33,523 nucleotides of DNA from Butyriboletus loyo. Its lineage: Eukaryota; Basidiomycota; Agaricomycetes; Boletales; Boletaceae. Location of the stretch: the NCBI GenBank assembly GCA_038093515.1, contig JBBPSI010000255.1:1-33523 (forward strand), in the 5' to 3' direction. Within the stretch, counting starts at the first letter, position 1. Every line of letters begins with the position of its first letter. Both the position numbers and the translations under genes were made by a program. The notes under the pieces are model-generated. The model was not told where the DNA came from and searched no databases. It saw only the letters and a program-made list of their open reading frames with translations. Of the stretch, positions 1 to 31,085 are shown piece after piece.

Positions 1-1712
1 CCGTTGACATCCTTCTGCATAAGTACCGCTCCGGTAGCAGTAAGTGAGGCATCTGTCATAACGGCGAACGGTTTTGTGACATCGGGCATGGAGAGGACAG
101 GCTGCCTCAAGAACGACTGTTTGATTGCTTGGAACGCTTGTTCGCAAGCCGGAGTCCAAGCCCATGGGGAGTTCTTCTTGGTCAGATCGTGAAGGGGTTT
201 GGCGATGTGGGAGAAGTCCTGGATAAATCTCCTGTAGAAATTGCAGAACCCAATGAAGGATCTGACTGCCTTCACCGAGGTCAGGGGGTTCCATTCGCGA
301 ATGGCTTTCAGCTTGGTGGGGTCCATCTTGACCTGTCCTTCTCGGACCATCATTCCGAGGTATTCGACTTCCTCAGCGTCGAACGAACATTTCTCCAGTT
401 TGAGGAATAACTTGTGCTCTCTGAGCCTTTCCAGAACACGGATTGTACGGGCTTCGTGTTCGGCAGAGGTGGCAGAATGGATGAGAAGATCGTCCATGTA
501 AATGATTAGCCATCCTTCTGCCATGAGATCGCCGAAAATGTGGTCCATTAAAGCCTGGAAGGTTGCTGGGGAGTTGCAAAGGCCGAAGAACATCACGGTG
601 GGTTCGAACAACCCTTGGGGCGTGATGAAGGCCGCTTTCCAGCGGTCGTTCGGTTTGATGAGGACGTTGTTGTATCCCCAGTGGATGTCCATCTTGGTGA
701 AGATTTTGGACCCTTTGAGACGATCGACGAGGTCGGAGATGAGGGGAAGAGGATAGGCGTTTTTGACTGTATGGGAATTCAGGTACCTGTAGTCCTGACA
801 AGGTTGTAATGAGCCATCCTTCTTGGACACGAAGAAGAAGGGAGCAGCCTGAGGAGACTTCGAGGGAGTGATCTTTCCAGACTTGAGATGTTCCTCGACG
901 AAAGCTTTGCAGGCTTCCGACTCTTTTGGATTCAGGGGATAAACCTTGGCGACTTTCGGGACGAAGTCTTTGTCGAGGTCGATAGTGTGGTCGAAAGATC
1001 GGGACGGGGGTAATTCCTCAGTATTTTTCTTGTCAAAAACATCCGCAAAAGCAGCGAACGGGGTAGGGAGAACTGCTTTCTCCTTGACGACTTGGGCGGC
1101 GATCTCCGTCGTGATAGTTGCTTTTCGAATAGGGTAAGCTTCCCTAGCTGAAGCGTCTACTCGCTTCTTCCAGAGCTTGGTGATTTTGGAGTCTGGGTCC
1201 AAGTCAAGGTACTGTACCAGGTACCGTTGAGCGATTGCCCGAGGAGAGTCGTGTCGGGGCTTCTTGATTTGATCTGGGAGATCGATATGGCCAGTGGCCC
1301 AATCTATTACCGGGTTTGCTTCTCGTAACCACGGTAGTCCCAGGATCATGTTTTCTTTTCCGATATTGAGGACAAGAAAGCTCCGTTCTTCCTCGGTTTC
1401 TCCAACTCTGATGGAGAGGGTGACTTTGTGTCGAATGACTCCTCCTTGGTTGTTTGACCCGTCCATGTTCTGGGCACTAAGTGGCTTGGGTAGCCGTTCC
1501 ATCGGCAGTCTCTTTCGCTTCACTAGATCGCGATCTATGAAGCATCCGCTTGCGCCGCTGTCCACCAGGGCGAATGTGTCGACGATTTGACCCCCTTCGT
1601 GCGCGAATAAAGAGACAGGAACTCGAATTGATTGCGCATTGGGGTTTGATAAAACTACAGGGGCGATTACAAGAGGAGGCGAAGACGTCGAAACTTCCCT
1701 CCTTTCTAAAAA
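1..1712 (-). CDS. Ty3/gypsy pol polyprotein, protease-RT part (runs off left edge)
   Basis: This frame is open from about 1712 down to the window edge with no stop; the rest of pol lies outside. It starts in the -1 frame relative to gag. An aspartic protease comes first (DSGA motif near 1555-1580), then a long linker, then reverse transcriptase with the catalytic YMDD at about 489-500 and the start of the RNase H/tether region. The last 700 bases are close to 18162-18858, so this is a second copy of the family seen at 14567-18858. No stop or frameshift is visible, so the element may be recent. It would copy the element RNA into cDNA in virus-like particles. The gag-pol junction is described under gag. 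Confidence 0.93.
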
Positions 1713-2701
1713 TCCTTTGGCCATTCTTTGGCCACCTTGGTTGCTGCTATGGGCAGCTTTTCTTCATCTTCGTTGAAGCATGCCTTGAGGACATTCAAGA
1801 CGTCTTCTTGTTGGGTGCCTCGACCCTTTAACTCGGACAGGTAGTCGATGAGTGGGGAGGGCTTGGGCTCTGGTTGCGTGACGACGGCGGCGCGTGTGCG
1901 CTGAGGGTTGCGAGGGGGACGAGAGGGTGGTCCTCGGGAGTTCTGCCCATTGCGAGGGGGGCGAGGATGGTTGGTTGAACGACATCCGACTTGGTGGCAG
2001 ATGAAACATTTGTTCTGTTTCATGTACTCCGCACGTTGTACTGGAGTAAGTCGGACGGCGTCGACGTCCATGGCGTTGGGGTCCCTTCTGTTAGACGAGG
2101 GCTTTGAGGAAGAGGAGAAGGTGGGAATGTAGCGCTTCCCGGCGCGGAGGTCGTCGATGCGCTTATGCTGCGCATGGAAAGCGGATGTTTTCTCGGCCCA
2201 TCCGGCAAGCGTGGTAGGGGGCTTCTCGCAAGAGAGGACAGACTCGGCGAGGCGGGGGTCAAGACCGCGGATGAACCACTCGATGAGCGCCTTCTCATCT
2301 ATGATTCCGGACTTGGCAGCGAGGAGCTGGAATTCCGTGACGTATGTGTCGTAGCCGTCCTTGCGGTTGGCCTTGTTCTGGGTTAAGTTCCCCAGGTCGA
2401 TACGAGCGCTTTCTCCTACGTCGAAGGGATGGAAGACTCTGTGAAAGTCTTCGCAGACGGTGGTGAACTCCCTTTGTTGTGCTGTAGGGTGTCCATCTAG
2501 GAGAAGGCTCATCCATCCTTCTGAGAACGTCTTGCCCTTTCCTTCGCTCATTTTCATGAGGAGGGCGTTGATTTTTGACTCATCGTCGGGGAATGCTGTC
2601 TGGTTGGCGGCGAAATATGTGCGCATGGCGAGGAGCCATCGCGAAGCGTCCTCATTGAGGCCAGAGAAGTCCTTGGGAACGATATTCTTTTTGTCCGACA
2701 T
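1706..2701 (-). CDS. Ty3/gypsy gag (capsid/nucleocapsid)
   Basis: An ORF of 331 codons from the first in-frame ATG (2701). It has a Retrotrans_gag-like helical region (WLLAMRTYF near its start, later FIRGLDPRL) and a C-terminal zinc-knuckle-like motif CFICHQVGCRSTNH. That motif has CX2CX4CX4H spacing, so the last two ligands are swapped relative to the usual CX2CX4HX4C. The frame is open upstream, without an ATG, almost to the LTR (about 3092), so a non-ATG N-terminal extension cannot be excluded. The stop codon TAG (1706-1708) directly follows a TTT codon in a run of five T (minus strand, 1708-1712). A -1 slip there enters the open pol frame. Gag would package the RNA and form the particle. 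Confidence 0.88.
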   Translation of the reverse strand: MSDKKNIVPKDFSGLNEDASRWLLAMRTYFAANQTAFPDDESKINALLMKMSEGKGKTFSEGWMSLLLDGHPTAQQREFTTVCEDFHRVFHPFDVGESARIDLGNLTQNKANRKDGYDTYVTEFQLLAAKSGIIDEKALIEWFIRGLDPRLAESVLSCEKPPTTLAGWAEKTSAFHAQHKRIDDLRAGKRYIPTFSSSSKPSSNRRDPNAMDVDAVRLTPVQRAEYMKQNKCFICHQVGCRSTNHPRPPRNGQNSRGPPSRPPRNPQRTRAAVVTQPEPKPSPLIDYLSELKGRGTQQEDVLNVLKACFNEDEEKLPIAATKVAKEWPKDF

Positions 2702-3092
2702 ATCGTTGTTGTTTTCTTCGTCGTCAGAGGGGTCTGCGGGCGGATAGTACGGGGGAGAGGGAGAGCGGGAGTTGTGTGGGGAGACGTGGGGGGTTCTGTC
2801 AAGCCAATCGCTTTGATAACCGTCGTCGCTGGGTTCCGGTTCGTTTTCCTGCCCTAGACCCTGGTCCTCGGGTTGATAAGAGGGTTCGGGGTCCAACTGG
2901 GGCAAAGGGGAAAACTGGGGTTGAGGGTCTGGCGGGGCGGGAGAGTGTGGCGGCGATGGGTTGTCGACGACGATGGGTTCCGGTTCGGGAGAAGGAACAC
3001 GGAAAGAACGACCGACACGTCTGGGACGTTGGATGGAAATGTTGGGCGAGGGGAGGGCGGCTTTACTGCTGAAGAGCAGAAGCGAGGTGAAG

Positions 3093-3102
3093 ATCTAGTT
3101 CT
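3093..3102 (-). promoter_or_regulatory. Putative self-priming primer-binding site
   Basis: Two bases inside the 5' LTR boundary the minus strand reads AGAACTAGAT. This is exactly complementary to ATCTAGTTCT in the LTR (3255-3264, minus strand), the predicted transcript 5' end about 33 nt after a TATAAAG box. I see no match to a tRNA 3' end. This is the arrangement known for Tf1/sushi-type elements, where the RNA 5' end folds back as primer. Inferred from complementarity and spacing only. Confidence 0.65.
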
Positions 3103-3104
3103 TT

Positions 3105-3530
3105 TGTTACGCTGGGCGCTAACAATAGAACAGCGAGGAGGCACTCTGGAGTGGCCTCGAGACTCTGGAGACGATTCTGGAGAAGTCTCAGACTATGTCT
3201 TAGTGCTCGCACTAAGAGTCTGGCAATGAACTAATTGCTAGCAGGTTACTGCGTAGAACTAGATACCGTTACAGGGTGTAAAGACAGTGGCTTTATACTA
3301 CTGAGGTCTGCGCACAGACCATGCTCCCTAATCGGGTCGCGAGAGCAAAAGTACAAACGAGGAAAAGATACTCTAGAACGTTCTGGAGTATGAAAGAAAG
3401 TGCGTCCGTGCGCGGGAAGTGATGACTAAGCAAGAACGGTTGTTACCGTTCAACAGGAACTAGCAAAAGGCTAGGTGAATGTAATAGTCCCAATGGTAGT
3501 GGAGAGAAAAAGTAGACCACTACCGTAACA
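3105..3530 (-). repeat. Gypsy 5' LTR (426 bp)
   Basis: Bounded by the inverted repeat TGTTAC...GTAACA. It is the same length as, and clearly similar to, the LTR at 14567-14992. On the minus strand it has TATAAAG at 3291-3297. It abuts Helitron helicase coding sequence at 3530/3531; the adjacent 5 bp, GATCA (3531-3535), would be one target-site duplication, with its partner outside the window. It is the 5' LTR because gag follows it on the minus strand. Confidence 0.92.
3291..3297 (-). promoter_or_regulatory. TATA box of the gypsy LTR
   Basis: TATAAAG on the minus strand, 33 nt before ATCTAGTTCT, the segment complementary to the primer site. The homologous LTR keeps the same TATAAAG and a near-identical spacing (around 14753 to 14726). 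Confidence 0.6.
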
Positions 3531-5068
3531 GATCAGGCAGCTGTTGATCCTGGACAGGTGCAAGAAGTTGGGAGTACAGGGCATTGATGAGAGAAGCTAT
3601 ATCAGCACCACAATGCATGTGTTGAGGTAGCTCCAAGTCTCCATCAGTAATTCCTATCTGAAGTAGTTGCTGGGCCCATGCATCACATTCTGGATCCTGG
3701 CCAATTTGCATGTTCTGGTGGAGATAGTGTACAGTCATGCTTGCCCAGAGGTTGGAGTGAGTGAGAGTGGCAGGAACAATCTGTTCTCTTGCACCATGCT
3801 GAATCACAGGGAGAGTTTGCCTGAAGTCACCACCAAGCAGAGTGGTAATTCCTCCAAATGGTTGATTCTGGTTCATCAGGTCACGCAGAGTACAATCTAC
3901 ACATTCCACCACATGATGATGCTGAGAGGCAGCTTCATCCCAGATGATGAGAGAGGACCTTTGAATGAGCTGATGGTGAACATCATCCTTCTTGATATTG
4001 CAGGTACTCTGCTCATGGCAAGGAATGGGGATCTTGAAGTGTGAATGGGCAGTATGACCACCAGGAAGAAGGAGTGAAGCAAGACCAGTGGAGGCCACAC
4101 AGAGGACAATTCTCTCTCTCTCTTGAACAGTAGCTGAAATAAGTTGGGTCAGATAGGTCTTGCCACATCCACCACCACTGTGAAGGAAGAACATGGATCC
4201 ATGAGAGTTGAGAACACTGTCCATTGCTGCATGGTAGAAAGCACTCTGGTGAGCATTCAGAGTGGGTAGTGCCCTATCAACAAATTGCTGCAACTCCTGG
4301 ATGTTGAATGCCTGCTGTTCATTGATGAGCTGGTTTCCCTCCTGGATACCCCAATTTCCTTGTGGCCTGGGCATGGCTGGATAGTCAAGCAAGCTTTTTC
4401 CATGTCTTCTAAGGTCCTGGGCTATGAGATGCAAGCCATAGTCATATATCTGCTCCTGGGTAGGCTCTGGAATATGAACAGTATGGGTGAGATGATGACA
4501 CAGATCATCACAGAGATTGTCCTTGGATGCTTCCCACAACTGATCAGGATCCACAGGAGAGCAATGGACCAGTATGACAATAAACAGATGGCAAAGTTGA
4601 AAGCCCATGCTAAAGTGGGCAGCCTCCTGTAAACACAGCAACCACTCACTATCATCTTGCAAGAGACCAAGTGCATGACAGGCCTCCTTGAAGGAATCAT
4701 GGAGATGACCATTGACAGTATGAAGGTGTTCATATGAGGTAGCACCTATGAGAAAATGAATGTTTAGTTTTTCCCCATCTAAATTATAACCAATCTCACC
4801 TTTGACCACAGTGAGCAGAAGGCACAAGTAGAAGGCTTCACCAGCTGAGGGAGGAATGCTATACATGCGTCCAATGGCCTTGTATCTTTGACAAATCTTC
4901 CAGATGGCAGTACTCTTGTTCCAGACAAAGTATTTGGGAAACTCCTGATAGAGGTGGTTGTGTGCTCCAGCAGCAATGAGCTCAGGATTTGCATTGGCCT
5001 TGAACCATCCAAGCAGTTGAGTGTCCTTGGCATTGTTGACCACATTGTCTATTTGAGCTTCAGCTTGA
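3531..5068 (-). pseudogene. Helitron Pif1-type helicase, copy 1, C-terminally truncated
   Basis: Follows the one-base frameshift at 5068-5072. It contains Walker A GGGCGKTY (about 4153-4180), the Walker B-like LIIWDEA, and LLGGDFRQTLPVI, all hallmarks of SF1B Pif1-like helicases in Helitrons, which unwind DNA during rolling-circle transposition. An in-frame 54-nt intron (4746-4799) is inferred. The ORF stops three codons after 3531 inside the gypsy LTR, so the C-terminal helicase motifs are lost here and may continue left of the gypsy element. Confidence 0.9.
4746..4799 (-). other. Inferred frame-preserving intron in helicase (54 nt)
   Basis: AAAG|GTGAGAT...CTAAACAT...CTCATAG|GTGC. Removal joins VVKG to ATSYEHLHTVNG, the usual contiguous sequence in Helitron helicases (family knowledge). 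Being 54 nt with no stop, it is invisible to ORF calling. Confidence 0.7.
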
Positions 5069-5775
5069 AAAACAATGGACTGCTGGCCATTCCATGTGCA
5101 TGGGGAACTCCAAGATATTGTGGCAAGCCTGGGTGGAAGAGACATATCTGGCATCAAGGTAGGAATGAATTTCATCATGACCTTCTGTCTGAATGGTGGC
5201 ACAATCTGGACTCTTGTAGATGTACTTGTGAATGTACTTGGCAGCCTTGATGGAGCTACAGACTTCCAAGTTGATGTGACAGTCAAATTGGACCAACAGC
5301 TCTCTTGGATGAGGAACAACATCCTTATTGCTAAAGACATCTTGATGCTTTTGAACAGTCCTGCCATTGTCAGGGCAAGCATAGTCAGGGTAGCCATCCT
5401 CCTTGATGATGGTATGATCAGAGAATTGCTTTGGAAAGTGCTTCTTGCAAGCACCACCCTCCAAGCATCTTTGAGGAGAACAGGGGCCATGGAGCATGCA
5501 CTTGATGACAGCAGAGTGAAGTTGGGGATGGATGTCAGGGTCTGGAATCTGTGCTGAGATGAGAGCATCCACTTGCTCCACAGTATGAATCTTGTCTTGT
5601 TCCTCCAAAAAGATCAACAGATGCATGTGAGGCAAGCCACACTTCTGATATTCAATGGTGTAGACCAAGCCAGCCACTTGACCAAAGTAGCCATCATGAA
5701 TCTTCTTCACCAAAGCTTGCTGCTTGCCATGAAAGACATGTGTCACCAGATCAGGCCTATCCACAGTAGATTGAC
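5069..5775 (-). pseudogene. Helitron Rep (HUH endonuclease) exon, copy 1
   Basis: Continues from the 49-nt intron with QSTVDRPDLV. It carries the HUH motif in CGLPHMHLLIFLEE (about 5606-5640) and the tyrosine motif AAKYIHKYIYK (two Tyr three residues apart plus a third; about 5213-5250), which are the nicking and strand-transfer residues of Helitron Rep. The frame ends in HMEWPAVHCF followed by a stop, because a run of five A (plus strand, 5068-5072) appears one base too long. The next frame continues the expected protein. The catalytic residues look intact, but the ORF is broken. Confidence 0.88.
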
Positions 5776-5824
5776 CTACAGGATGGTCAGACTTGTAAAT
5801 AATCAAATCTAATGAGACACATAC
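5776..5824 (-). other. Inferred spliceosomal intron in Rep domain (49 nt)
   Basis: CCAG|GTATGT...TGTAG|GTCAAT. Splicing restores the expected Helitron sequence NLLPG-QSTVDRPDLV, whereas both unspliced frames hit stops or nonsense. Copy 2 is truncated before this point, so there is no second copy to compare. Confidence 0.8.
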
Positions 5825-6540
5825 CTGGAAGCAGATTTTGAGTAATTTCTGGCCAGCTCCCATTGGCAGTCATGGTGAGGAAAAGGTCAGGCTTTCTGTA
5901 TTCTCTACAGATGGCCAAGGAGTCTTGAAGCAGCTGCTGCATGTGGCGAGGCCCACCCTTGTGAGTGGAAGGAAGAATGACACAACCAACTTGAGCCATG
6001 TCTTGACCAGCATCTTGACCCATATGATCAATCCCTCAATCCTTGATACAGATCAGCTCTAAGATTTGCCTGATTGTTGGCAACCCAGGTAAGATTGCAC
6101 TGATCAATGGAAGCCCAAGCATCACAGACCAACTGCTGAAACAGACTTGCTCCTTTGAAGAGATTGGGTGGCTCAAATGCCGGTGGATGAATATGCAACC
6201 TGTAGGCATACCAAAGCAGCTGGGTGACCTTCTTGGAGCAATGTAGATGACCATTGTGTAGCTGAAGTGGAATATCCAGATGCCAGCCCTCTTCTCCATG
6301 TGGAAAGAGAAGGACATAGTGGAGAAGAAGGTAGAAGGGATGGAGGTTGCTAATGTGACGTAGACCACCACCTTGAAGGTGTAGAATGATGTCACACTGT
6401 ACTCTGACATTCTCTGAACCATCTCCAGGAATTATGGCAGCTTTCTCTTCAACAGTAGGAAGGTTGTATCTCCTGGCATCAGCTGCCTGTTGCAAGCAAA
6501 GCCTCGTGTGAACATCAGTATGCTCCTCTGCAGGCTTGGC
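5825..6540 (-). pseudogene. Helitron_like_N exon (copy 1), frameshifted
   Basis: Encodes the Helitron_like_N part of the Rep domain, including VLLFPHGEEGWH and the later AICREYRKPDLFLTM and WPEITQNLLPG. A 4-nt insertion around 6024-6031 relative to copy 2 (GATTGATCATATGG against GATCGTATGG) adds a TGA (6028-6030) and shifts the frame, so copy 1 cannot make a full protein here. Otherwise it is close to copy 2 (12862-13482). The exon ends at the 49-nt intron, in the middle of the NLLPG glycine codon. Confidence 0.85.
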
Positions 6541-6595
6541 CTATTTTATATTATAAGTATGTTTGTTGGAAAGAGAGAGATCAATTGCTACTGAC
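6541..6595 (-). other. Inferred spliceosomal intron, Helitron copy 1 (55 nt)
   Basis: CAG|GTCAGT...AAAATAG|GCC. Removing it joins the reading frame ending at YEIMQ to the next exon. The same 55-nt intron is at 12807-12861 in copy 2. Confidence 0.85.
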
Positions 6596-8452
6596 CTGCA
6601 TGATTTCATATGCCTGCTTGTAGAGAGGAGCATATGGATGAATTTCCCTTAGGGTGGTATGCAGATCCAGCAAGATGGCACCATCCAGTTGAGGGTTGCG
6701 CTGAACTCGTCTATCAGTTGCCTCCTGTGGGTCATAGATATAGAGCTGAACATAGGAAGGCTGCAGTCCATCTGGTGGCATGAGGGCACCCATGAGGTGG
6801 TGAAGTGTACCATGGATATGAAAAGCATTTGGCCCAGAGCCTTGAACAGTTTGGTTGTCCACATCAGCACCCACAGAAGTAAATGCCAGGGCATTGTTGT
6901 ATTGACAAATTTTCTTCCTGAACTGTCTATGGTCTTGGGGATCATCAAACAGATTCTGTAGGGCATGTGGCCATTGTTGTATGGGAGGAAGGTTGACTTG
7001 ACCCTGGAGACAGCATGTTCCAAAGCGAGGATTACGAACACCAGAGTTGGCCAGCTTTTCTGAGATGAAATGCAGAGCATGGCAATTGGGACACTGAATG
7101 TCCATTAGTCCAAGGGAGTGGGGTAGGACAGGCTCAGCATATATCTGGCCACCAGGTGGAATGTGATGTGGAGGCTGAAGATGGATGGAATCTTCAGAGT
7201 CACTGGAGCTGGAATCAGATGGATCAGGATTGGGATTGGGAGGTGGATTTGGAGAGAGCCTTGGAGCAGGTCTTGGTGATGGACTTCTGGATCTTGATGG
7301 TCTGGCAGATGGGGAAGGAGGTGGGCTTGGATCTGGATCTGGGCTAGGAGGTGTATGTGGAAATCTTGGAGCAGAACCTGGTATGGGAGAAGGAGGAGGA
7401 GGGCCAGGATCACGATTATTATGGGATTGTTGCCTCTGCTGATCTTGCTCATATTGTTCTGCTGAGCATTGGCTATATTCATGGAGTGCTTCTGAAAGCA
7501 AAGCTTGGGAGAGCTGTTGTACCTGCTGTATTGCATTCTGCTCCTGAAGCTGATGTTCCTCCTCCTGCTGGCGTAGTGCATGCTGTTGCTCTTCAAGAAG
7601 TCTCTGATGTTCCAGCTGCTGCTGTTGCAATACCAGTTGTTGGGCTTCTAGGAGCCTTAAATGTTCAGCTCTCTGTTGATGCAAAGCCTGTTGCTGCACT
7701 TCAAAAAGCCTTTGGTTCTCTGCCTCCTGATGGCGCAAAGCTTGTTGCTGTTCTTCAAAGAGCCTGAAATGGTCTGTCTCCTGATAACGCAAAGCCTGTT
7801 GCTGCTGTTCAAAAAGCCTTTGATGTTCAGCTTCTTGTCTTTGCCAGTGTTCATGTTGCAACTGCACTGAATGGAGATGTTCCTGTTCTTGTTGTTGTAC
7901 CCTCATCAAATGAAAATGAGCCTGAGCTTGCTGAGCTTGCCACTGCCTCTCCTGACTGAAATCAATGACATGTTGGTGACTTTGTACATTTTGTGGAGGA
8001 GGGTGTGAAGGACCAGCTTGGGCAGCAGCAGGAGGCTGGGCAGAGGAACGGTTGTGTCTTCGGTTGCGTCTTTCCTCATGAGCATGATTAAATCCTTCTA
8101 GCAAGCGAGCACTATAATCTACTCTGGCACCCATTTGAGGAAAATGCTGGGGTAGAGGAGGAGGAGGCTGAGCAAATGGTTGATAGCCCAAGGGATGATG
8201 TGGTTGCTGATAGATATGGAATGGCTGAGGAACAGGAGGTAGTGGCTGAGGTGGTGGTAAGAATGGGATATTAACTGGAGGAGGAGAACGCTGCATCCGG
8301 TGCACACGTTGCATCTCATGGTGTTCAATCAAGTGACGTGGCATGCCAGGGTATTGATGAATTGGCACAGGAGGGTGATTCTGAAATTCATATTTTAGCA
8401 TTTTATACCCAACCCAGAACAGAAAGTAACCCACAATCAAAGCAGCAGGCAT
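6596..8452 (-). CDS. Helitron protein N-terminal exons (copy 1): Q-rich repeats plus Zn-like domain
   Basis: The ATG at 8452 is a possible start, but homology with copy 2 continues upstream to about 8575, so the true start may lie in another exon. An intron at 8381-8434 is inferred. The protein begins with Pro/Gln-rich sequence, followed by five tandem 18-residue units typified by EHQRLLEEQQHALRQQEE (about 7545-7835), probably coiled coil. A Pro/Ser/Asp-rich stretch follows, then a Helitron-type N-terminal region with CPNCHALH and later LYIYDPQEATD. The exon ends at a GT donor (6595). The hydrophobic stretch soon after the ATG is translated intron, not a membrane segment. The Q-rich repeat block is unusual for a Helitron; its role is unknown, perhaps oligomerisation. 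Confidence 0.8.
8381..8434 (-). other. Inferred spliceosomal intron, Helitron copy 1 (54 nt)
   Basis: GTGGGT...TTTCAG with a branch-like GCTAAAA. At the same place copy 2 has a 60-nt GTAGGT...TTCTAG segment (10240-10299) that contains an in-frame stop, so removal is required there. In copy 1 the length is a multiple of three and the intron reads through without a stop. Confidence 0.7.
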
Positions 8453-8579
8453 AGGAGCCTGAACAGAAGAACGTGGATGGCGACGGGAGGGAGGAGAGCC
8501 AAGCTGGCGTTGAGCTCGTTCAGCTTGGCGAGAAGCATTCTGGGCACGCTGAGGAGAGGTAGGAGGAGAAGACCTAAAT

Positions 8580-9387: not shown

Positions 9388-9896
9388 TGTTATAATCATA
9401 ACATCTATTTGTTCTGGACTTAATCGTTTTGCTTCAACTTCACTTTCAAAGGTCACGTGACATAGCGCACGTGATTGTGAGAACTTACATGTGATCTCCT
9501 GCTGACTAAGCATATGATGTCATGGCCTAGACCAGGCCTAGACTCTATGACATCACAACACATGTATTTAATCTCCGTTTACTTCTCTTCTTTTTTGATC
9601 CCTGCGCCTCGTGTGGTTAATCACCGTTGCGCTTCTCTTCTTTAGTCTAGCCATGTATAGTAGTTCATCACACGCACAGCATGGTCTGTGCGCATCTTTG
9701 TACAATATATAAAGGCTCGTGGTTAGACTAGGATTCCCTAGTTTTAACCACTTGTCTATTCGCTGGCAACAGTTGGGGACTAAGCTAGAACTCCTAGTTC
9801 ATACTTGCCAGGTATTTGTGTATACCTGCAACTGTAGTGGACCCTGTGTGACAAGGCATTCGTACTGGCATTCGACCGTGCGTTGCTAGCGTAACA
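9388..9896 (+). repeat. Solo LTR, family A copy 1 (509 bp)
   Basis: Starts TGTTATAATC and ends GCGTAACA, flanked on both sides by the perfect 5-bp duplication GTTAT (9383-9387, 9897-9901). It contains CAATATATAAAGG (TATA-like, near 9705), suggesting plus orientation. No internal region is present, so it is the product of LTR-LTR recombination. Homologous to 12115-12659. Confidence 0.9.
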
Positions 9897-9901
9897 GTTA
9901 T

Positions 9902-10059
9902 GGCGCATGGGGCATCGTGCTCAGGCAAGCCACATGGGAGCGATACCCATAAAAGGGTGAAAACGTGGTATAAGCGAAATACTTGAAATACTCGAAGTAC
10001 ACGTGCAGCCGAAAAGTACCTGAAAAACCCGAAAAAAGTGTCACCTACAAAAAATCCCC
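9902..10059. other. Unassigned spacer before Helitron copy 2
   Basis: No gene recognised. It leads directly into the ATG at 10060 of Helitron copy 2 and may be its 5' untranslated region. Confidence 0.4.
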
Positions 10060-11184
10060 ATGCCCTCCTCCATTCACTTTATTGGATTTAGATCTTCTCC
10101 TCCTACCTCTCCTCAGCATGCCCAGAGTGCTGCTCACCAGGCTCAACAAGATCTGCATCGGCTTGGCTCTCCTCCATCCCATCACTATCCACATCCTCCT
10201 ATTCAGGCTCCTGACACAAACATGCCTGCTGCTTTGATTGTAGGTCACTTTTCATGTGCTACATGCTGTATATCTGAAAAGCTGATATATGAATTCTAGA
10301 ATCATCTTCCTTTACCAATTCATCAATATCCTGGCATGCCACACCATTTGAATGAGCATCATGAGATGCAATGTAGGCACCGAGTACAACGTTCTCCCCC
10401 TCCTATCAACATGCCTCCTCCACCTCCTCAGCCATTTCAGCAAGCATTCCTTCCATTGCTACCTCCACCTCCTCAGCCATTTCAGCAACCATTCCCTCCA
10501 ATGCTACCTCCAAATCCTCAGCCATTTCAGGCCTATCTTCTACCTCAGATGGATGCTAGGGTAGATTACAATGCTCGCCTACTACAAGGATTTGATCGTA
10601 CTCATGAAAGAAGGTGTAACCGAAGACACAATCATTCCTCTGCCCAGTCCTCTGCTACTGCCCAACCTGGTCCTTCATACCAACATGTTATCGATTTTAA
10701 TCAGGAGAGGCAGCAGCAAGAACAACAACAACAGGCTCATTCTCATTTGATGAGGGTACAACAACAGGAACAGGAACATCTCCATTTCATGCAGTTACAA
10801 CATGAACACCTACAAAGACAACAAGTTGAACATCAAAGGCTTTTTGAACAGCAGCAACAGGCTTTGCAGGAACAGGAGGCAGAGGCACAAAGGCTCTTTG
10901 AAGTGCAGCAACAGGCTTTGCAGCAACAGAGAGCTGAGCATTTAAGGGTTCTAGCAATCCATGGCCAGATATTACAACAGCAGGAGCTGGAACATCAAAG
11001 ACATCTTGAACAACAACAACAAGTAGTATATCAGCAGGAGCTAGAACATCAGAGACTTCTTGAAGAGCAACAGCATGCACTACGCCAGCAGGAGGAGGAA
11101 CATCAGCTTCAGGAGCAGAATGCAATACAGCAGGTACAACAGCTGTTCCAAGCTTTGCTTTCAGAAGCACTTCATGAATATAGC
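10060..11184 (+). pseudogene. Helitron copy 2 N-terminal exons (Q-rich repeats)
   Basis: Exon 1 10060-10239 starts with ATG after AAAAATCCCC. A 60-nt intron, 10240-10299, with an in-frame stop is followed by exon 2 from 10300. Exon 2 encodes Pro-rich sequence and then five 18-residue Q-rich units (about 10828-11100). Unit order differs from copy 1: an extra EHQRHLEQQQQVVYQQEL unit is present and one copy 1 unit is missing. The frame runs into the LTR at 11185. It gives the best evidence for the true N-terminus of this Helitron protein. Confidence 0.8.
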
Positions 11185-12007
11185 TGTTACAGTTTTACCC
11201 CTAAGCGTACCCCGCCACTCGTTTTCCCACGCTCTCGCGTACCCGCCATCCCTGCCATCTCGTGATGCCGCCCATCGCCTGCTCCTTAGTCACCTAGTGG
11301 ACGTTACCCACTTCCCCAGTTGTTCTGCAAGTCTCAGTGATGCTACACTGAGATAGCCCCTGTCTTCTCGCCCCGTTGGGCCGGACCTTCAGTTGAGCTG
11401 TCGCGTCCTTCTTTCTTTGACCAATGACATTTGTTACATCACGTGACTAGCACGTGATTAGATTATGACGTGTCAGTACCTTCGCGTCGAGACCCGTATC
11501 CAAGGGCTCTGCTGTTCGCGTCCCCTTTGCCCTGTGGGCCTTACCTCGTGGACATCGTCACTTCGCATTCCGCTCTTCTCATTCGCTGACGATGTTGCCA
11601 CCTTGCTCGGAGCTTCACTCCCTCGTTACCGGCACTTTGCCGCTTCTCTATTTGCCGTTATGACTCGAGCAGACTCATAACCCTTCGCCCCTCGCTGCCA
11701 CGCACAGCTCGGTCTGTGCACGATATCTATTCATATATATACCAGCGTACTTAGCATAGTACGGCTTCCCTAGCTAATTCTACGCATCTACCAAGTGCAT
11801 AGTAATCTAGCAGTATACCCTTCATCTCCCGATTGAGCCGATAAGTCTCTACTTGATCTCGACTGATCGCCACCACTTGACATCTCGAAGACACTTGCTC
11901 AGCAGAAGCCCAATAGCGTCGTCTATGCGAGTCAGCCACTTTCCTCATTAGGCTCGAGCCCCTAGTCAAGTGCTCGCTGCTAGTTATTGTGCGCTATCAG
12001 CGTAACA
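11185..12007 (+). repeat. LTR, family B copy 1 (823 bp) inside Helitron copy 2
   Basis: Starts TGTTACAGTTTTACC and ends ATCAGCGTAACA; nearly the same as 29610-30431. A TATATATACC box is near 11736. The flanks ATAGC and ATATC differ at one base, and about 75 bp of Helitron sequence present in copy 1 is missing at this junction, so it is either a solo LTR with a mutated duplication or a recombination product. Confidence 0.88.
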
Positions 12008-12114
12008 ATATCCCATACCAGGCCCTGCTCTAAGACCTCCACATCCACCTCCCAGCCCAGATCCAGATCCAAGCCCACCTCCTTTCCCATCTGCCAGACC
12101 ATCAAGAACATATA
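12008..12114 (+). pseudogene. Helitron copy 2 fragment between two LTRs
   Basis: 107 bp matching the Pro/Ser/Asp-rich linker of copy 1 (minus strand, about 7300-7400), including repeated CCAGATCCAGATCC. Flanked directly by LTRs on both sides. Confidence 0.85.
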
Positions 12115-12659
12115 TGTTGTAATCATAACATTTATCAGTACATTTCAAACTTTGGACTTAGTCGTTTCGTTGCAACTTCACTTTCAAAGGTCACGTGACA
12201 TAGTGCATGTGATCGTGGGAACTTACATGTGATCCATTGCTGACTAAGCATATGATATTATGGCCCAGATCAGACCTAGACTCTATGACGTCACAACACA
12301 TGTATTTAATCTCCGTTTACTTCTCTTCCTTTTGATCGCTGCACCTCATGTGGTTAATCACCATTGCACTTCTCTTCTTTCTGATCCCCATTGACCCTGT
12401 AGTCTAGCCATGTATAGTAGTTCATCTCACACACAGCTTGGTCTGTGCGCATCTCTGTATAATATATAAAGGCTCATGGTTAGACTAGGATTCCCTAGTT
12501 TTAACCACTTGTCTATTTGCTAGAAATAGTTAAGGACTAAGCTAGAACTCCTTGATCACTCTTGCCAGGTCTTTGTGTAGACCTGCAACTGTAGTTGGGA
12601 CCTCGTGTGGACAAGTATTTGTGCTAGCATTTGACTGCACATTGCTTGGCCTCATAACA
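12115..12659 (+). repeat. LTR, family A copy 2 (545 bp) inside Helitron copy 2
   Basis: Starts TGTTGTAATC and ends CTCATAACA; homologous to 9388-9896. The flanks ATATA and ATCTA do not form a clean duplication, and Helitron sequence present in copy 1 between the two flanks (several hundred bp) is missing. This fits recombination between two separate insertions, or a deletion at insertion. Confidence 0.85.
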
Positions 12660-13482
12660 ATCTATGACCCACAGGAGGCAACTGATAGACATTGTGTTCA
12701 GCACAACCCTCAACTGGATGGTGCCATCTTGCTGGATCTGCATACCACCCTAAGGGATATTCATCCATATGCTCCTCTCTACAAGCAGGCATATGAAATC
12801 ATGCAGGTCAGTAGCAATTGATCTCTCTCTTTCCAACAAACATACTTATAATATAAAATAGACCAAGCCTGCAGAGGAGCATACTGATGTTCACATGAGG
12901 CTTTGCTTGCAACAGGCAGCTGATGCCAGGAGATATAACCTTCCTACTGTTGAAGAGATAGCTGCCATAATTCCTGGGGATGGTTCAGAGAATGTCAGAG
13001 TACAGTGTGACATCATTCTATGCCTTCAAGGTGGTGGTCTATGTCGTATCAGCAACCTCCATCCCTCCTACCTTCCTCTCCACTATGTTCTTCTCTTTCC
13101 ACATGGAGAAGAGGGCTGGCATCTCAATATTCCACTTCAGCTAAACAATGGTCATCCACATCGCTCCAAGAAGGTCACCCAGCTGCTTTGGTATGCCTAC
13201 AGGTTGCATATTCGTCCACCAGCATTTGAGCCACCCAATCTCTTCAAAGGGGCAAGACTGTTCCAGCAGTTGGTCTGTGATGCTTGGGCTTCCATTGATC
13301 AGTGCAATCTTACCTGGGTTGCCAACAATCAGACAAAGCTTAGAGCTGATCTGTATCAAGGCTTGAGGGATCGTATGGGTCAAGATGGTGGTCAAGACAT
13401 GGCTCAAGTTGGTCGTGTTATTCTTCCTTCCACTCACAAGGGTGGGCCTTGCCACATGCAGCAGCTGCTTCAAGACTCCTTG
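12660..13482 (+). pseudogene. Helitron copy 2 N-terminal/Helitron_like_N exons, truncated
   Basis: 12660-12806 encodes IYDPQEATD through YEIMQ. A 55-nt intron (12807-12861, GTCAGT...AAATAG) follows, then 12862-13482 encodes AKPAEE-like sequence and the Helitron_like_N region through MQQLLQDSL. The frame is open, with the GLRDRMGQ stretch that copy 1 has lost. The copia LTR interrupts it directly after CCTTG, which is the expected 5-bp duplication half. Confidence 0.88.
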
Positions 13483-13931
13483 TGTTGAAACAGTAGTGTT
13501 CTATTTCTGTATTTCACTTACAGCCACTACATTTCTAGACAAGTCTAAATGACATCATTGTCTAGACTCTGTCACGCTTATTACATTACAAATAGCTCTT
13601 ATTATGCTATTGGACGATATGCTTAGTCTTATCTCTTATCTCTATCATATTGTCATGTATTTCATATTATACCTTATAAAGGTACTATACAGAACATAAG
13701 TACAAATACTCATGTACTGTATATAAGACAGCCCTTATGGCTTGTTGCTTTTCTCTAGATCTTTCAGTTCTATCATCACTACTGCAATATCTCTAAGTTG
13801 AGCCTTGCTCCTTATACTCTGTTTGCGATACTCTCACTCTTGTATTATCAGTGAGTCTTTCCACTGATAGGTTTACCCTTGCATCCTTCGTTGCCCTCGG
13901 TGCGCCTGCTCGGACTTTACCAATTCCGAAA
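13483..13931 (+). repeat. Copia 5' LTR (449 bp), family C copy 1
   Basis: Starts TGTTGAAACAG and ends TTCCGAAA, immediately followed by a primer-binding site. Same length as 32911-33359 and matching 30637-31085. It contains TGTATATAAGAC (near 13717), a TATA-like box. It interrupts Helitron copy 2 after CCTTG. The 3' end AAA rather than CA is supported by the exact duplication around the 32911 copy and by the abutting primer site. Confidence 0.82.
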
Positions 13932-13943
13932 GGTTATGAGCCC
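13932..13943 (+). promoter_or_regulatory. Copia primer-binding site, half-tRNA initiator Met type
   Basis: GGTTATGAGCCC directly after the LTR. Its complement, GGGCTCATAACC, is the anticodon arm of eukaryotic initiator tRNA-Met, the priming region used by Drosophila copia and related elements, which use a 5' half-tRNA rather than the CCA 3' end. The tRNA sequence is from general knowledge; the match is by eye. Confidence 0.75.
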
Positions 13944-14566: not shown

Positions 14567-14992
14567 TGTTACGCTGGGCGCTAACAATTGAACAGCGAGG
14601 AGGCACTCTGGAGTGGCCTCGAGACTCGTGAAGCGTTTCTGAGCTGGGTCTCAGACTATGTCTTAGTGCGCACACTAAGAGTCTGGAAGTGATACTAATT
14701 GCTAGCAGGAAGCTGCGTAGAACTAGATAAAGTACATGGTGGAAAGGCAGAGCCTTTATACTACTGGGGTCTGCGCACAGACCGTGTTCCTAATCGGGAC
14801 GCGAGAAGGAAAGTACAAGTACGGAAGGAACATTCCAGAAGGTTCCGGAGTGTGAGGGAAAGTGCGTCCGTGCGCGGGAAATGGTGACTAAGCTAGAACG
14901 GTTGGTACCGTTCAAAAGGAACTAGCTGTAAGCTAGGCGAATGAAGTAGTCCAAGTGGTAGTGGATGGAAAAAGTATACCACTACCGTAACA
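14567..14992 (-). repeat. Gypsy 3' LTR (426 bp)
   Basis: TGTTAC...GTAACA, the same length as 3105-3530 and similar throughout. It keeps TATAAAGG and ATCTAGTTCT at TATA-to-start spacing. A purine tract lies just upstream on the minus strand, which marks it as the 3' LTR. Confidence 0.92.
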
Positions 14993-15043: not shown

Positions 15044-16315
15044 TCATTGAGACGCTCCCTCGTTGAAGTCGTAATCGTAAGGGTCGTCGGCAGGGAGCTC
15101 CGCCCACGCGTCGTCCCGGAACGTGCAGTTGGCGACGATATGGCCAACGGCTCCACATAGGCCGCAGATACGCTCTGGACAAAACTCCTGTATATGACCA
15201 GGGGCGATCCGATGACAGAACGGACAGGTGTAGTTGGGACAGTCCCTGCGGAAGTGGCCGACGGTCCCGCACTCGAAGCAGAGTTGCGGGCGGACGAGGC
15301 GAGGTCGAGCAAGGCTCGGGCTGGGGTCAGGGGATCTGTCGTCGACGACGATAGGGGAATCACGAGTGCCCCGGCCGGCGAGGTAGGGTGGCGGGGGTCC
15401 GTAGGAAGAGTCATTAGAGCTACCAGCTGCGACGGCAGGGGTAGTGACACGGGGAATAAGCTGGATGGCGGGCGTGCCTCGTCTGGTAGACGGTTGGGGG
15501 GTGACGGAGCGGACGGCTCTATTGGCGATTCTTCGTCCTGCGGCAGTGAGGGTGACGGATCCAGGGATTGCTCCGACCTGGAGTAGCGCCTGGCGAGGTT
15601 GGCGACGCACTGTACGAGGCGGTAGGGGGGAGTGTCGACGAGCGACCTGGGGCTCGTCGACGTCGGTCCGAAAGGACTCCAAGGATTCTCCTGTTGTCTC
15701 ACGAGACGAATCTGCTACCAACGTGGTTGCAGGAGAGCTTCGGACGGGTGGCGCTGGAACAGGTACAGGCGAAGGAGATCTTGCCGGGGGAGGACGAGGC
15801 ACTGGATTGGGGCCGCGAGCCATGGGACGGAGGTAGCCGATGCGGTCGGTGGAGTGAAGGTAAAATTGCCGCTCCCTAGGAGCAAGCGCGATGAGAATGG
15901 GGCGGAGGACTGGAGCCAGAATACCTGGCAGGAGCTGATCGACCACGTAACCGAATCCTTCGGCGTGGAGGATATCGAGGGTGTAGCCCCTAGCCTCCAT
16001 CAAGGAGGACTCAAGGGCAGCGGCATAGACGGGGGGTTGGTTGTCTGGACACAGACGTGTGTGGACGGTACGGGCGAGGGCGTACGAGCGGTATAAAGAG
16101 GCGAGGGTGCGGAGGACGTAGTCCCCGGTGAAGTCCATGCGCTGTTCAAGCGCGTACGTGGCAACGGGATTTTCGAGAACGGCGGCGTAGAGAACGCGGC
16201 GGGAGGAAACAGGAAGACGGGAAGAGCGGACTGGGGGTTGCGGTGGAAGGGGAAGGTTTTCGTTGTTGTCGTTGGCAGCAGAAGAAGCATTGTTTTCGAC
16301 TGGGGAGATGGACAT
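15044..16315 (-). CDS. Extra ORF between pol and 3' LTR: three-zinc-knuckle protein
   Basis: 423 codons from ATG at 16315, starting 11 nt after the pol stop and in a different frame. The N-terminal half is mostly helical-looking (YALEQRMDFTGDYVLRTLAS), followed by a Pro/Ser/Arg-rich linker. Three zinc knuckles close the protein: residues 346-359 CFECGTVGHFRRDC (CX2CX4HX4C), 364-379 CPFCHRIAPGHIQEFC (CX2CX6HX4C) and 384-397 CGLCGAVGHIVANC. An acidic tail follows, and the stop is 51 nt from the LTR. No signal peptide or membrane segment is visible, so it is not an Env protein. It is distinct from the element's Gag, which has one variant knuckle. Likely nucleic-acid binding; the role is unknown. 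Translation may rely on reinitiation after pol or on a subgenomic RNA. The ORF is fully open. Confidence 0.85.
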   Translation of the reverse strand: MSISPVENNASSAANDNNENLPLPPQPPVRSSRLPVSSRRVLYAAVLENPVATYALEQRMDFTGDYVLRTLASLYRSYALARTVHTRLCPDNQPPVYAAALESSLMEARGYTLDILHAEGFGYVVDQLLPGILAPVLRPILIALAPRERQFYLHSTDRIGYLRPMARGPNPVPRPPPARSPSPVPVPAPPVRSSPATTLVADSSRETTGESLESFRTDVDEPQVARRHSPLPPRTVRRQPRQALLQVGAIPGSVTLTAAGRRIANRAVRSVTPQPSTRRGTPAIQLIPRVTTPAVAAGSSNDSSYGPPPPYLAGRGTRDSPIVVDDRSPDPSPSLARPRLVRPQLCFECGTVGHFRRDCPNYTCPFCHRIAPGHIQEFCPERICGLCGAVGHIVANCTFRDDAWAELPADDPYDYDFNEGASQ

Positions 16316-16326
16316 TTTCGAGTGTT

Positions 16327-18858
16327 TTACTGCGAAGATGGGGAAGGAAAGTCTTTGGGGTGGCGCAGTTTATAAGCCTTGAGCAAGGCCTGCGCATGGA
16401 CCAGGTTCCCGTTTGGTTCCCAGGTGTTTTCTGCTGCGGAGTATCCTTTCCAGGACACAAGGAATTGACGGCGTCCCTTTGAGCCGCGATGGGACAAGAT
16501 CCGATCGATCTCGTACTCTTCATCTCCGTCTATTTCTTCCGGAGGAGGGTTTGTGAAATTCGGACCATGTTCTGCGGTTTCACGATAAGGGGTGAGGAGC
16601 GACGCATGGAAGACGTCATGGATCTTCCATGTCGGTGGTAATCGGAGTCTGTACGCCACAGGGGATACGACTTGAGCGATCTCGAACGGCCCTTCCCTTC
16701 TCGGGGCGAGTTTCTTGGACGGGTACCTGAGTCTCAGGTTACGCCCTTCTAACCAAACCTTATCGCCGGTCTTCCACGGGCGGAACTTGGACTGGATCCG
16801 TTCCTTCATCAGGCGGCGTGCCTTTTCGTGGGCTTCTAAAGCCTCCGTTCGGGCTCCCGTGAGTTCCGAGAGCCTGGACTCGAGGGCGGGGAGAAACGTC
16901 TTTCCGATTGGAGGATAAGATCTTGGCTCGTAGCCGACCATCAGAGAGAAAGGGGTCACGTTGGTCGATGAATGCGTCATCGAATTGTGGGAGAATTCGG
17001 CCATGGGGAGGAGTTCGGCCCAACGTTCCGGGTGTCCATCACAGAAGATCCGCAGGTAAGTCTCTAATTCCTGGTTGACTCGTTCTGTTTCGCCGTCGGT
17101 CTGAGGGTGGTAGGTGGAGGAAAGGGCGAGGTCGTAGTCCAGGAGCCTCGCGAGTTCTCTGGCAAAGGCGGAGGCGAACTGAGGGCCTCGATCAGAGATG
17201 CAGCGAGAGTGTAGTCCAAAGCGAAGGAAAACCGTTTTGAAAAACAATTTGGCGACTCCCGCCGCATCGATGTCCTTTTTGCAAGGGGAATAAATTACCC
17301 CCTTCGTAAGCCCATGGTCTACCACGACCATGACAGAATCGTATCCCAGGGAAGGAGGGAGACCGGTGATGAGGTCGACTGACACCTGTTCAAACGGACG
17401 GGAGGCCACACTGGCCAGAGGGGTGAGAGGGGGCACGGTGGGGTGAGTGTTAACCTTATGCGCCTGACAAACAGCGCAGCCGGCGACGAAGCGGCGGACT
17501 AAATTTGCCATTCCTGGCCACCAATAATCGCGTTGCACCAAGTTCTGGGTGCGGAATATGCCACCGTGACCACCAGCGGGACTTTCGTGTAAGGAGCGGA
17601 TAAGGTCGACTCGCGCTGCCTCAGGGATGTAGCGTTTCTTGCGGAAATATAACTCCTTGCCATCGAAATCCCAGTCCCCAGCGTTCATTTTGGGGAAGAG
17701 TGGGGAGTCTTCGTAAAGAGCTTGCATGCAGCGCTTGATCATAGGGTCGCTGGGGGTGGAGGCGGCAATCTTTTCAGCAAGAGCAACGTCAATCTTGCGA
17801 GCGAAGAGATTTTCGGGGAGGAGGGTAACTTCCTGGTTATCGGCGGAAGTGTCAACATCGTCGCGGCGGGATAAGGCATCGGCCGGGCCCATCTGAGTAC
17901 CCGGAATGTGATGGAAGTGCAGGTCGAAATCCTGCAGGAACATAAGCCAGCGTGCTTGCCGGCGAGACAGCTTGTTTGGTTGGCGGAAGTAGGTGAGATT
18001 CTTATGGTCGGTGAGAATTTCCACCTGATGACCAGTACCGCGCAGGTAGTGGCGCCATTCTTCTAATGCGTGAATGACCGCGAGCAACTCGCGATCATAG
18101 ATATCGTAATTGCGCTCAGCGGGCGAGAGCGTCTTTGATAAGTAGGCGCAAGGATGCAGGTCGCCATTGACATCCTTTTGCATGAGCACTGCTCCAGTAG
18201 CAGTGAGAGAGGCATCCGTCATCACGGCAAACGGCTTCGTGACATCGGGCATTGAGAGAACGGGTTGTCGTAAGAACGACTGTTTGATTGCTTGGAACGC
18301 CTGCTCGCAAGCCGGGGTCCAAGCCCATGGAGAGTTCTTCTTGGTCAGGTCGTGCAGCGGCTTCGCGATGTGAGAGAAGTCCTGTATGAATCTGCGATAA
18401 AAATTGCAAAACCCAATGAAGGACCTGACTGCCTTCACTGAGGTCGGGGGGTTCCATTCGCGAATGGCCTTCAACTTGGTCGGGTCCATTTTGACCTGTC
18501 CTTCTCGGACCATCATCCCGAGGTACTCCACTTCTTCGGCATCGAACGAACACTTTTCCAATTTGAGGAACAACTTGTGTTCGCGAAGTCGCTCCAGGAC
18601 GCGGATCGTTCGTGCCTCGTGTTCTTCAGAGGTGGCGGAGTGGATCAGTAGATCGTCCATGTAGATGATTAGCCATCCTTCTGCCATTAGGTCACCAAAG
18701 ATGTGGTCCATTAGAGCCTGGAACGTAGCTGGGGAGTTACAAAGTCCGAAAAACATCACGGTGGGCTCGAACAGCCCTTGAGGAGTGATGAAGGCCGCCT
18801 TCCAGCGGTCGTTCGGCTTGATGAGAACATTGTTGTATCCCCAGCGGATATCCATCTT
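16327..18858 (-). CDS. Ty3/gypsy pol (RT-RNase H-integrase-chromodomain), N-terminally truncated
   Basis: Counting from MDIRWGYNN as residue 1: RT catalytic YMDD at 65-68; RNase H acids D214, E256 and D283; integrase zinc finger H423, H430, C460, C463; integrase DDE D494, D555, E591; a GPF/Y-like segment at 722-725 (EGPFEI); chromodomain about 781-830 (YEIDRILSHR...FLVSWKGY...NTWEP), which targets insertion to chromatin. The order RT-RH-IN-chromodomain identifies a chromovirus. No internal stop is present over 842 codons, but protease and the RT N-terminus are lost at 18858. It would be inactive on its own. Confidence 0.95.
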   Translation of the reverse strand, partial: KMDIRWGYNNVLIKPNDRWKAAFITPQGLFEPTVMFFGLCNSPATFQALMDHIFGDLMAEGWLIIYMDDLLIHSATSEEHEARTIRVLERLREHKLFLKLEKCSFDAEEVEYLGMMVREGQVKMDPTKLKAIREWNPPTSVKAVRSFIGFCNFYRRFIQDFSHIAKPLHDLTKKNSPWAWTPACEQAFQAIKQSFLRQPVLSMPDVTKPFAVMTDASLTATGAVLMQKDVNGDLHPCAYLSKTLSPAERNYDIYDRELLAVIHALEEWRHYLRGTGHQVEILTDHKNLTYFRQPNKLSRRQARWLMFLQDFDLHFHHIPGTQMGPADALSRRDDVDTSADNQEVTLLPENLFARKIDVALAEKIAASTPSDPMIKRCMQALYEDSPLFPKMNAGDWDFDGKELYFRKKRYIPEAARVDLIRSLHESPAGGHGGIFRTQNLVQRDYWWPGMANLVRRFVAGCAVCQAHKVNTHPTVPPLTPLASVASRPFEQVSVDLITGLPPSLGYDSVMVVVDHGLTKGVIYSPCKKDIDAAGVAKLFFKTVFLRFGLHSRCISDRGPQFASAFARELARLLDYDLALSSTYHPQTDGETERVNQELETYLRIFCDGHPERWAELLPMAEFSHNSMTHSSTNVTPFSLMVGYEPRSYPPIGKTFLPALESRLSELTGARTEALEAHEKARRLMKERIQSKFRPWKTGDKVWLEGRNLRLRYPSKKLAPRREGPFEIAQVVSPVAYRLRLPPTWKIHDVFHASLLTPYRETAEHGPNFTNPPPEEIDGDEEYEIDRILSHRGSKGRRQFLVSWKGYSAAENTWEPNGNLVHAQALLKAYKLRHPKDFPSPSSQ

Positions 18859-30636: not shown

Positions 30637-31085
30637 TTTTGGAATTGGTAAAGTCCGAGCAGGCGCACCGAGGGCAACAAAGGATGCAAGGGTAAACCTA
30701 TCAGTGGAAAGACTCACTGATAATACGAGAGTGAGAGTATCGCAAACAGAGTATAAGGAGCAAAGCTCAACTTAGAGATATCGCAGTAGTGATGATAGAA
30801 CTGAAAGATCTAGAGAAAAGCGACAAGCCATAAGGGCTGTCTTATATACAGTACATGAGTGTTTGTACTTATGTTCTGTATAGTACCTTTATAAGGTATA
30901 GTATAGAATACATGACAATATGATAGAGATAAGAGATAAGACCAAGCATATCATCCAATAGCATAATAAGAGCTATTTGTAATGTGATAAGCGTGACTAG
31001 GTCTAGACAATGATGTCATATAGACCAGTCTAGAAACGTAGTGGCTGTAAGTGAAATGCTGAAATAGAACACTACCGTTTCAACA
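30637..31085 (-). repeat. Copia LTR, family C copy 2 (449 bp)
   Basis: Reverse-complement copy of 13483-13931 (on plus: TTTTGGAATTGG...CGTTTCAACA). The flanks TATAT and AAGAA do not match, and copia pol begins abruptly at its right side, so it is probably a recombined solo LTR that removed the upstream part of the pol gene. Confidence 0.85.

Follow-up and report, generated by a model that had tools for sequence, protein, structure and literature searches.

Gag and pol are described as the usual frames of LTR elements in the text of Muszewska et al. 2011 (PMC3248453), and according to literature the third genes of LTR retrotransposons are usually taken as envelope-like (PMC5408684). In the window, by which we mean the whole analyzed stretch of 33,523 nucleotides from Butyriboletus loyo, a chromovirus carries a further frame that separates its pol from its 3' LTR. 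Here we ask whether this frame, termed ORF3, is a regular gene of the element, how its protein is made and what role it may play.

The ORF3 locus and its element

ORF3 (15044-16315) starts with ATG and encodes a lysine-free three-zinc-knuckle protein of 423 amino acids. Like all element features located in the window, it lies on the reverse strand. The pol stop codon TAA (16327-16329) and a spacer of 11 nt precede the start codon (together 16316-16329), and 51 nt separate the end of ORF3 from the 3' LTR (14567-14992; 426 bp, TGTTAC...GTAACA). An intact frame of 423 codons at these distances from pol and LTR had been proposed by the first-pass annotation, and the re-derived coordinates agree. 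The three zinc knuckles that it had recognized, one with unusual spacing, were also confirmed by mapping: knuckle 1 comprises residues 346-359 (CX2CX4HX4C; 15239-15280), knuckle 2 residues 364-379 (CX2CX6HX4C; 15179-15226) and knuckle 3 residues 384-397 (CX2CX4HX4C; 15125-15166). With an E-value of 1.1e-7 they match Pfam zf-CCHC (PF00098) and are of the nucleocapsid-like CCHC type. Two stretches with similar counterparts in homologues are found further towards the N-terminus, the linker motif SLESFRTDVDEP (residues 211-222; 15650-15685) and the motif GAIPGSVTLTAAGRRIA (residues 248-264; 15524-15574). An alpha-helical N-terminal domain is predicted for residues 36-154 (15854-16210) by a low-confidence structure model; the mean pLDDT of the two models was 36.9 and 46.8, too poor for use.

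Upstream of ORF3 the 3' part of pol (16327-18858) encodes RT, RNase H, integrase and a C-terminal chromodomain (16369-16515). The window copy is 5'-truncated at 18858, and gag as well as the pol start are visible only in other copies. These include another, likewise incomplete member of this family at 1-3530, with gag (1706-2905; Retrotrans_gag and one CX2CX4CX4H motif) and 5' LTR (3105-3530). Further repeats occur in the window. Large inverted and direct duplications, 76-95% alike, surround long frames at 3520-8579 and 9388-13482 that appear Helitron-like by eye. At 30637-33360 a direct repeat of 450 bp (97% alike) flanks the frame 31145-32080, which by eye resembles a copia-type integrase; the same repeat was found again, inverted, at 13483-13934.

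Fetched copies revealed the complete element, a Ty3/gypsy chromovirus of 7.1 kb with the order LTR, gag, pol, ORF3, LTR. Pfam search of pol returned RVT_1, RT_RNaseH, Integrase_H2C2 and Chromo above cut-off and rve below cut-off; the order of RT, RNase H and integrase, the C-terminal chromodomain and the flanking LTRs are those of chromoviruses. Both LTRs are present in 15 of the 20 copies fetched with flanks, with a total length of 7121-7129 bp and the ends TGTTAC and GTAACA, and identical 5-bp flanks were observed at five of these 15. Gag, pol and ORF3 are all open in 11 of the two-LTR copies, pol in the -1 frame relative to gag. In five copies the Gag end reads GATTTTTAG or GATTTTTGA (gag-pol junction, for example at about 2215-2230 of copy L009), and a frameshift at the stop codon is possible from this arrangement. 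Between the two LTRs of a copy, mismatches were counted at 1 to 37 positions out of about 425 (15 copies). The ORF3-bearing family includes recent insertions, with one LTR pair differing at only 1 of 424 sites.

A sequence of 10 nt in the LTR, ATCTAGTTCT, located downstream of a TATA box, is complementary to AGAACTAGAT, the 10 nt directly behind the LTR. This complementarity is invariant in the 15 aligned full copies (L009-L028 set). Complementarity between LTR start and primer site is the known self-priming arrangement of Tf1-type elements, and the element shares it with the Tf1/sushi-type chromoviruses; judged by this likeness, it is likely to prime itself in the same way. Tf1 is not known to have a third gene.

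Regular presence and purifying selection

ORF3 was present in all 20 copies first fetched. Since these had been selected by ORF3 and are therefore biased, its presence was retested with the C-terminus of pol as query. In the own genome (30.3 Mb) the best 150 of 423 candidates were scored, and a script found an ORF3 match within 2 kb downstream at 130 of them, or at 131 if a match on contig 143 is added. Eight of the remaining 19 pol ends were examined; each is immediately followed by ORF3 sequence, which is incomplete in five cases. The count covers 139 of the 150 scored pol ends, and none of these was found without ORF3. A pattern of the pol-ORF3 junction, allowing up to two mismatches, occurs at 125 places compared to one for the reversed control. 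Absence from other copies would have pointed to a one-off capture, according to the first-pass annotation. Instead, every pol end examined carries ORF3 sequence, and ORF3 is a resident, regular third gene of the element.

A search with ORF3 itself yielded 404 candidates, the best 99 of which were scored and are 85-100% identical. No internal stop occurs in 85 of these, a set biased to intact copies by its selection as the best-scoring ones. Stop codons within the 99 copies are TGA in 17 of 20 cases, TAA in two and TAG in one; the excess of TGA fits a C-to-T decay of CGA codons. Two of the copy labels, L030 and L037, refer to one and the same place.

Selection was assessed by pairwise omega according to Nei-Gojobori, using pairs with dS above 0.05. 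The median omega is 0.059 for ORF3 (207 of 210 pairs), 0.054 for gag (118 of 120) and 0.015 for pol (101 of 105); the set was picked by ORF3 similarity, which lowers dN. Comparisons that involve the divergent copies L032-L034 (12 pairs, dS reaching 1.0) gave an omega of 0.09-0.14. Near-duplicates (L014/L013 and L027/L026) were retained in the omega medians and in the lysine counts given below, and excluded from the alternative-frame shuffles, the junction comparison of divergent copies and the analysis of polymorphic sites. Constraint is unevenly distributed along the protein. Residues 37-168 are the most constrained part with a pN/pS of 0.015, followed by the motif-bearing stretch 206-275 (0.055) and the knuckles (0.080), and two other linker stretches reach 0.33 and 0.25. 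The dN/dS below 1 that the first-pass annotation had asked for is thus found as strong purifying selection. With omega far below 1 and copies that are 85-100% identical and mostly free of internal stops, ORF3 is beyond chance. From the low omega and pN/pS values we infer that it is needed by the element or for its spread.

An alternative frame of 261-274 codons, starting within ORF3 and entering the LTR, is open in 20 copies as well. As a gene it was ruled out, since 282 of 2000 shuffles that keep the ORF3 protein and codon usage are equally open inside ORF3.

Homologues and the absence of lysine

Apart from its knuckles, ORF3 matched none of the models in Pfam or NCBIfam above cut-off. The libraries searched contain no model for its protein family. 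Matches to CO dehydrogenase/ACS over the knuckles, below cut-off where one exists, were taken as chance matches of cysteine-rich sequence. The statement that ORF3 is not the element's Gag is supported: comparison with the element's own gag by hhalign gave a probability of 0.4%, and Pfam contains no capsid-type gag model matching ORF3 or its homologue P0002. An origin of ORF3 from Gag is therefore unsupported by profile comparison.

Homologues were found in metagenomes, one by the first protein search and eleven, including that one, by an alignment search with E-values up to 0.1. A region-limited protein search returned nothing, and three scans of viral contigs revealed no relative. Several of the metagenome homologues are partial. 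P0002, a protein of 350 amino acids, is 37% identical to ORF3 over 407 aligned columns, corresponding to most of its length, and carries the same three knuckles including CX2CX6HX4C in the middle. The middle knuckle of P0009 shows this spacing as well. P0002, P0003, P0004, P0006 and P0007 begin at a methionine homologous to the ORF3 start. In P0010, a chromodomain continues into ORF3 in one uninterrupted frame; this may reflect a pol-ORF3 fusion in another lineage or the loss of the pol stop there. The join indicates that the link between ORF3 and pol is older than the present family.

The most unusual property of ORF3, newly noted in this analysis and missing from the first-pass annotation, is the absence of lysine. 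All 21 copies counted contain no lysine and 44-46 arginines. In gag (24-25 lysines, 16 sequences) and pol (75-78 lysines, 15 sequences) the lysine content is normal, and the ratio of lysine to arginine in ORF3 differs from that in pol with p 1.9e-11 and from that in gag with p 6.7e-9 (Fisher test, one copy each). P0002 contains no lysine along with 32 arginines, and P0003 (303 amino acids), P0004, P0006, P0007 and P0011 are lysine-free, too. One lysine each occurs in P0001, P0005, P0008 and the ORF3 part of P0010 and two in P0009, most of these homologues being partial; the divergent own-genome copy L034 has two lysines in ORF3. Sixty-six ORF3 codons are one step away from a lysine codon. Lysine is involved in none of the 39 amino-acid-polymorphic sites of ORF3, whereas gag and pol together show it at 15 of 109 such sites (p 0.012). 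The two alternative frames of ORF3 contain a total of 10 AAA and AAG triplets, which shows that the gap is specific to the reading frame. It is long, conserved and unlike the composition of comparable proteins, as is characteristic of a lysine desert.

Conserved lysine deserts are described as common in proteins of the ubiquitin system (PMC10169902), and the low lysine content of foamy virus Gag is said to confer partial resistance to interferon (PMC5127032). By analogy with these cases, the simplest reading is that selection would keep ORF3 lysine-free to avoid ubiquitination and degradation. A modification other than that by ubiquitin could also be the target of the avoidance.

Synthesis and possible function of ORF3

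The spacer between pol and ORF3 measures 9 nt in eight, 10 nt in seven and 11 nt in five of 20 copies; copy L009, nearly identical to the window copy, likewise has 11 nt. In divergent copies 8-10 nt were found, so that the overall range of 8-11 nt covers all three phases. This variation rules out a pol-ORF3 fusion by readthrough or by a fixed frameshift as common mechanism and makes a separate ORF3 protein likely. Termination-reinitiation behind pol, as suggested by the first-pass annotation, is possible judging from the arrangement, and the short, steady spacer fits reinitiation as well as splicing. A serious competitor, to which we give somewhat less than an even chance, is translation from a spliced RNA, in which a donor near the transcript start in the LTR would be joined to the acceptor-like CAG next to the pol stop, or else from a brief transcript of an internal promoter. 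A splice-acceptor-like, pyrimidine-rich tract (16330-16352), putative in function, abuts the pol stop with its CAG end, and 17 of the 20 positions upstream of this CAG are pyrimidines. Scored against the other YAG sites with no AG in the preceding 15 nt, the junction CAG is unbeaten in nine of 13 copies, with ties, and beaten by one site in four; a YAG site in the leader likewise scores 17-18 pyrimidines. A donor-like GTRNGY about 53 nt past the presumed transcript start is common to the five copies examined. Within pol of five copies such donor-like sites are rare (0-1 compared to 2.9-4.0 in shuffles), and in ORF3 they are not (2-4 compared to 2.3-2.6).

Other observations speak against splicing. 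Out of 2000 synonymous shuffles, 469-666 produced an acceptor of equal strength, and pol contains a second site with as high a score; since shuffles match the acceptor so often, splicing is only suggested. Moreover, the run of invariant codons at the pol end is one of 16 runs of five or more, and the donor-like sites of gag are not significantly depleted (0-1 compared to 1.4-1.7 in shuffles). Against an internal promoter, the TATAAA reads TATAAG in several copies. A fungal intron of about 5 kb would be extraordinary. A precedent for spliced retrotransposon RNA is given by an Arabidopsis Ty1/copia element, in which splicing is described to yield a short gag RNA (PMC8892269).

The most likely function of ORF3, proposed with moderate confidence, would be RNA handling for the element. 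The best explanation as a whole, which we put forward tentatively and at a little under even chances, is that of a selected third gene whose separate protein serves as nucleocapsid-like RNA cofactor and is kept lysine-free. According to this explanation, translation of ORF3 would begin at its own start codon, a short distance past the pol stop. The element RNA would be bound by the three knuckles together with the arginine-rich linker, and the constrained N-terminal helical domain would mediate self-association or contact with a partner, for example Gag. The protein would act in trans, for instance in packaging or by helping the RNA 5' end to anneal to the primer-binding site of the same RNA, and the lysine-free state would let it escape ubiquitination and degradation. 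The mechanism is preferred because the element is self-priming in appearance and its Gag carries a single atypical CX2CX4CX4H motif, so that a separate RNA chaperone would help. The role as second nucleocapsid or RNA chaperone proposed in the first-pass annotation is plausible. Counted against a chaperone are the net charge of only +3 in the knuckle region and the acidic C-terminal tail. Zinc knuckles alone are not diagnostic, as they occur in proteins without a chaperone role, too, and self-priming elements are not known to need such a third gene.

Among solved structures, the ORF3 profile matches Air2, a subunit of the TRAMP complex, best (E 4.9e-7, against 0.0012 for the runner-up). Similar to Air1/Air2, ORF3 has three closely spaced knuckles with short linkers and a widened middle knuckle; the linker between knuckles 1 and 2 comprises four residues in both ORF3 and Air2, and the middle knuckle is widened to X6 and X5, respectively. 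The match covers the three knuckles and ends there, in comparison with a solved chain of 124 residues that is not full-length Air2, and Air2 has more knuckles than ORF3, with a further match at 97-122 of this chain. Two alternatives draw on this likeness. ORF3 could be a host-directed accessory factor, using its Air2-like knuckles against nuclear RNA surveillance or silencing, or working beside a host ubiquitin ligase and lysine-free to avoid its own tagging. The frequent lysine deserts of ubiquitin-system proteins and the low-lysine Gag of foamy viruses mentioned above would suit such a factor equally. We regard it as a possible yet rather unlikely role, as the resemblance is restricted to the knuckles, where knuckle-knuckle matches are generic, no ubiquitin-related domain was found in ORF3 with Pfam and NCBIfam, and within the set of copies analyzed, all from one genome, an omega as low as that of gag hints at no arms race. 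The other alternative, capture of a host gene by an ancestor of the element, appears improbable. The lack of homology to known retroelement proteins outside the knuckles would agree with it, and so would the knuckle array, which among solved structures is closest to a host protein, as far as this first-pass suggestion goes. In the own genome, however, the 150 scored matches to an Air2 query all lie between 25 and 31 bits with no outlier, and the best three, the only ones identified, are ORF3 copies; introns could hide a host gene from this search. Furthermore, the metagenome homologues include one that continues into a chromodomain and several incomplete ones, which is what copies of an element would look like.

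The position between pol and the 3' LTR and a hydrophobic stretch of 19 residues (128-146) could point to an envelope-like gene of the kind found in errantiviruses or Athila elements. This reading is very improbable. The stretch contains Arg and Pro, and the hydropathy peak of P0002 (1.52) is found at a different place. By eye the N-terminus is polar without a signal-like segment, a clear membrane anchor is missing, and the knuckles are typical of nucleic-acid binding proteins. The first-pass claim of no membrane or signal features is slightly too strong in view of the Kyte-Doolittle mean of 1.82 for residues 128-146. A more far-reaching idea is that of a dedicated lysine-free accessory gene, working at or escaping the host ubiquitin system while handling the element RNA. 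Its product would parallel the accessory proteins that complex retroviruses encode, and expression might proceed via a spliced RNA that skips gag and pol; in our estimation this is unlikely.

The preferred nucleocapsid-like cofactor can be placed among known systems. Retroviral nucleocapsid proteins share the CCHC knuckles (PF00098) with ORF3 and are part of Gag; in contrast, ORF3 is a gene of its own, and its three knuckles include a middle one of unusual spacing. The available descriptions of foamy virus Gag (PMC7828637, PMC5127032) likewise depict a nucleic-acid-binding protein with arginine-rich binding parts and low lysine. There, it is Gag itself in which GR-rich sequences replace the Cys-His fingers, whereas ORF3 is an extra gene with knuckles, so that the likeness is one of description. 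Non-envelope, family-specific third genes behind pol are also described for bdelloid rotifer LTR retrotransposons, but these ORF3s are esterases, exonucleases, coiled-coil or membrane proteins, and the terms "zinc knuckle" and "CCHC" are absent from the main text on them (PMC5408684). For fungi, Novikova et al. 2010 (PMC2864245) mark an "additional ORF", with function unknown, in a figure that compares fungal Ty3/gypsy elements with one from a spikemoss. The text of that paper gives no owner, sequence, domain or selection test, and the comparison with ORF3 is one by text only. At the level of titles and beginnings of abstracts, the literature showed no fungal element with an ORF3 that lacks lysine or carries three knuckles, with subscription papers, figures and supplements outside this scope. 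The first-pass expectation of an undescribed function is subject to the reservation that an "additional ORF" as such had been drawn before.

ORF3 is a knuckle gene, most probably non-envelope and selected as strongly as gag, in a family of at least 99 copies with recent insertions. Strong selection, copy number and recent activity open its role to a direct genetic test. Finally, its lysine-free protein suggests that this retrotransposon may be under genuine pressure from ubiquitin control.
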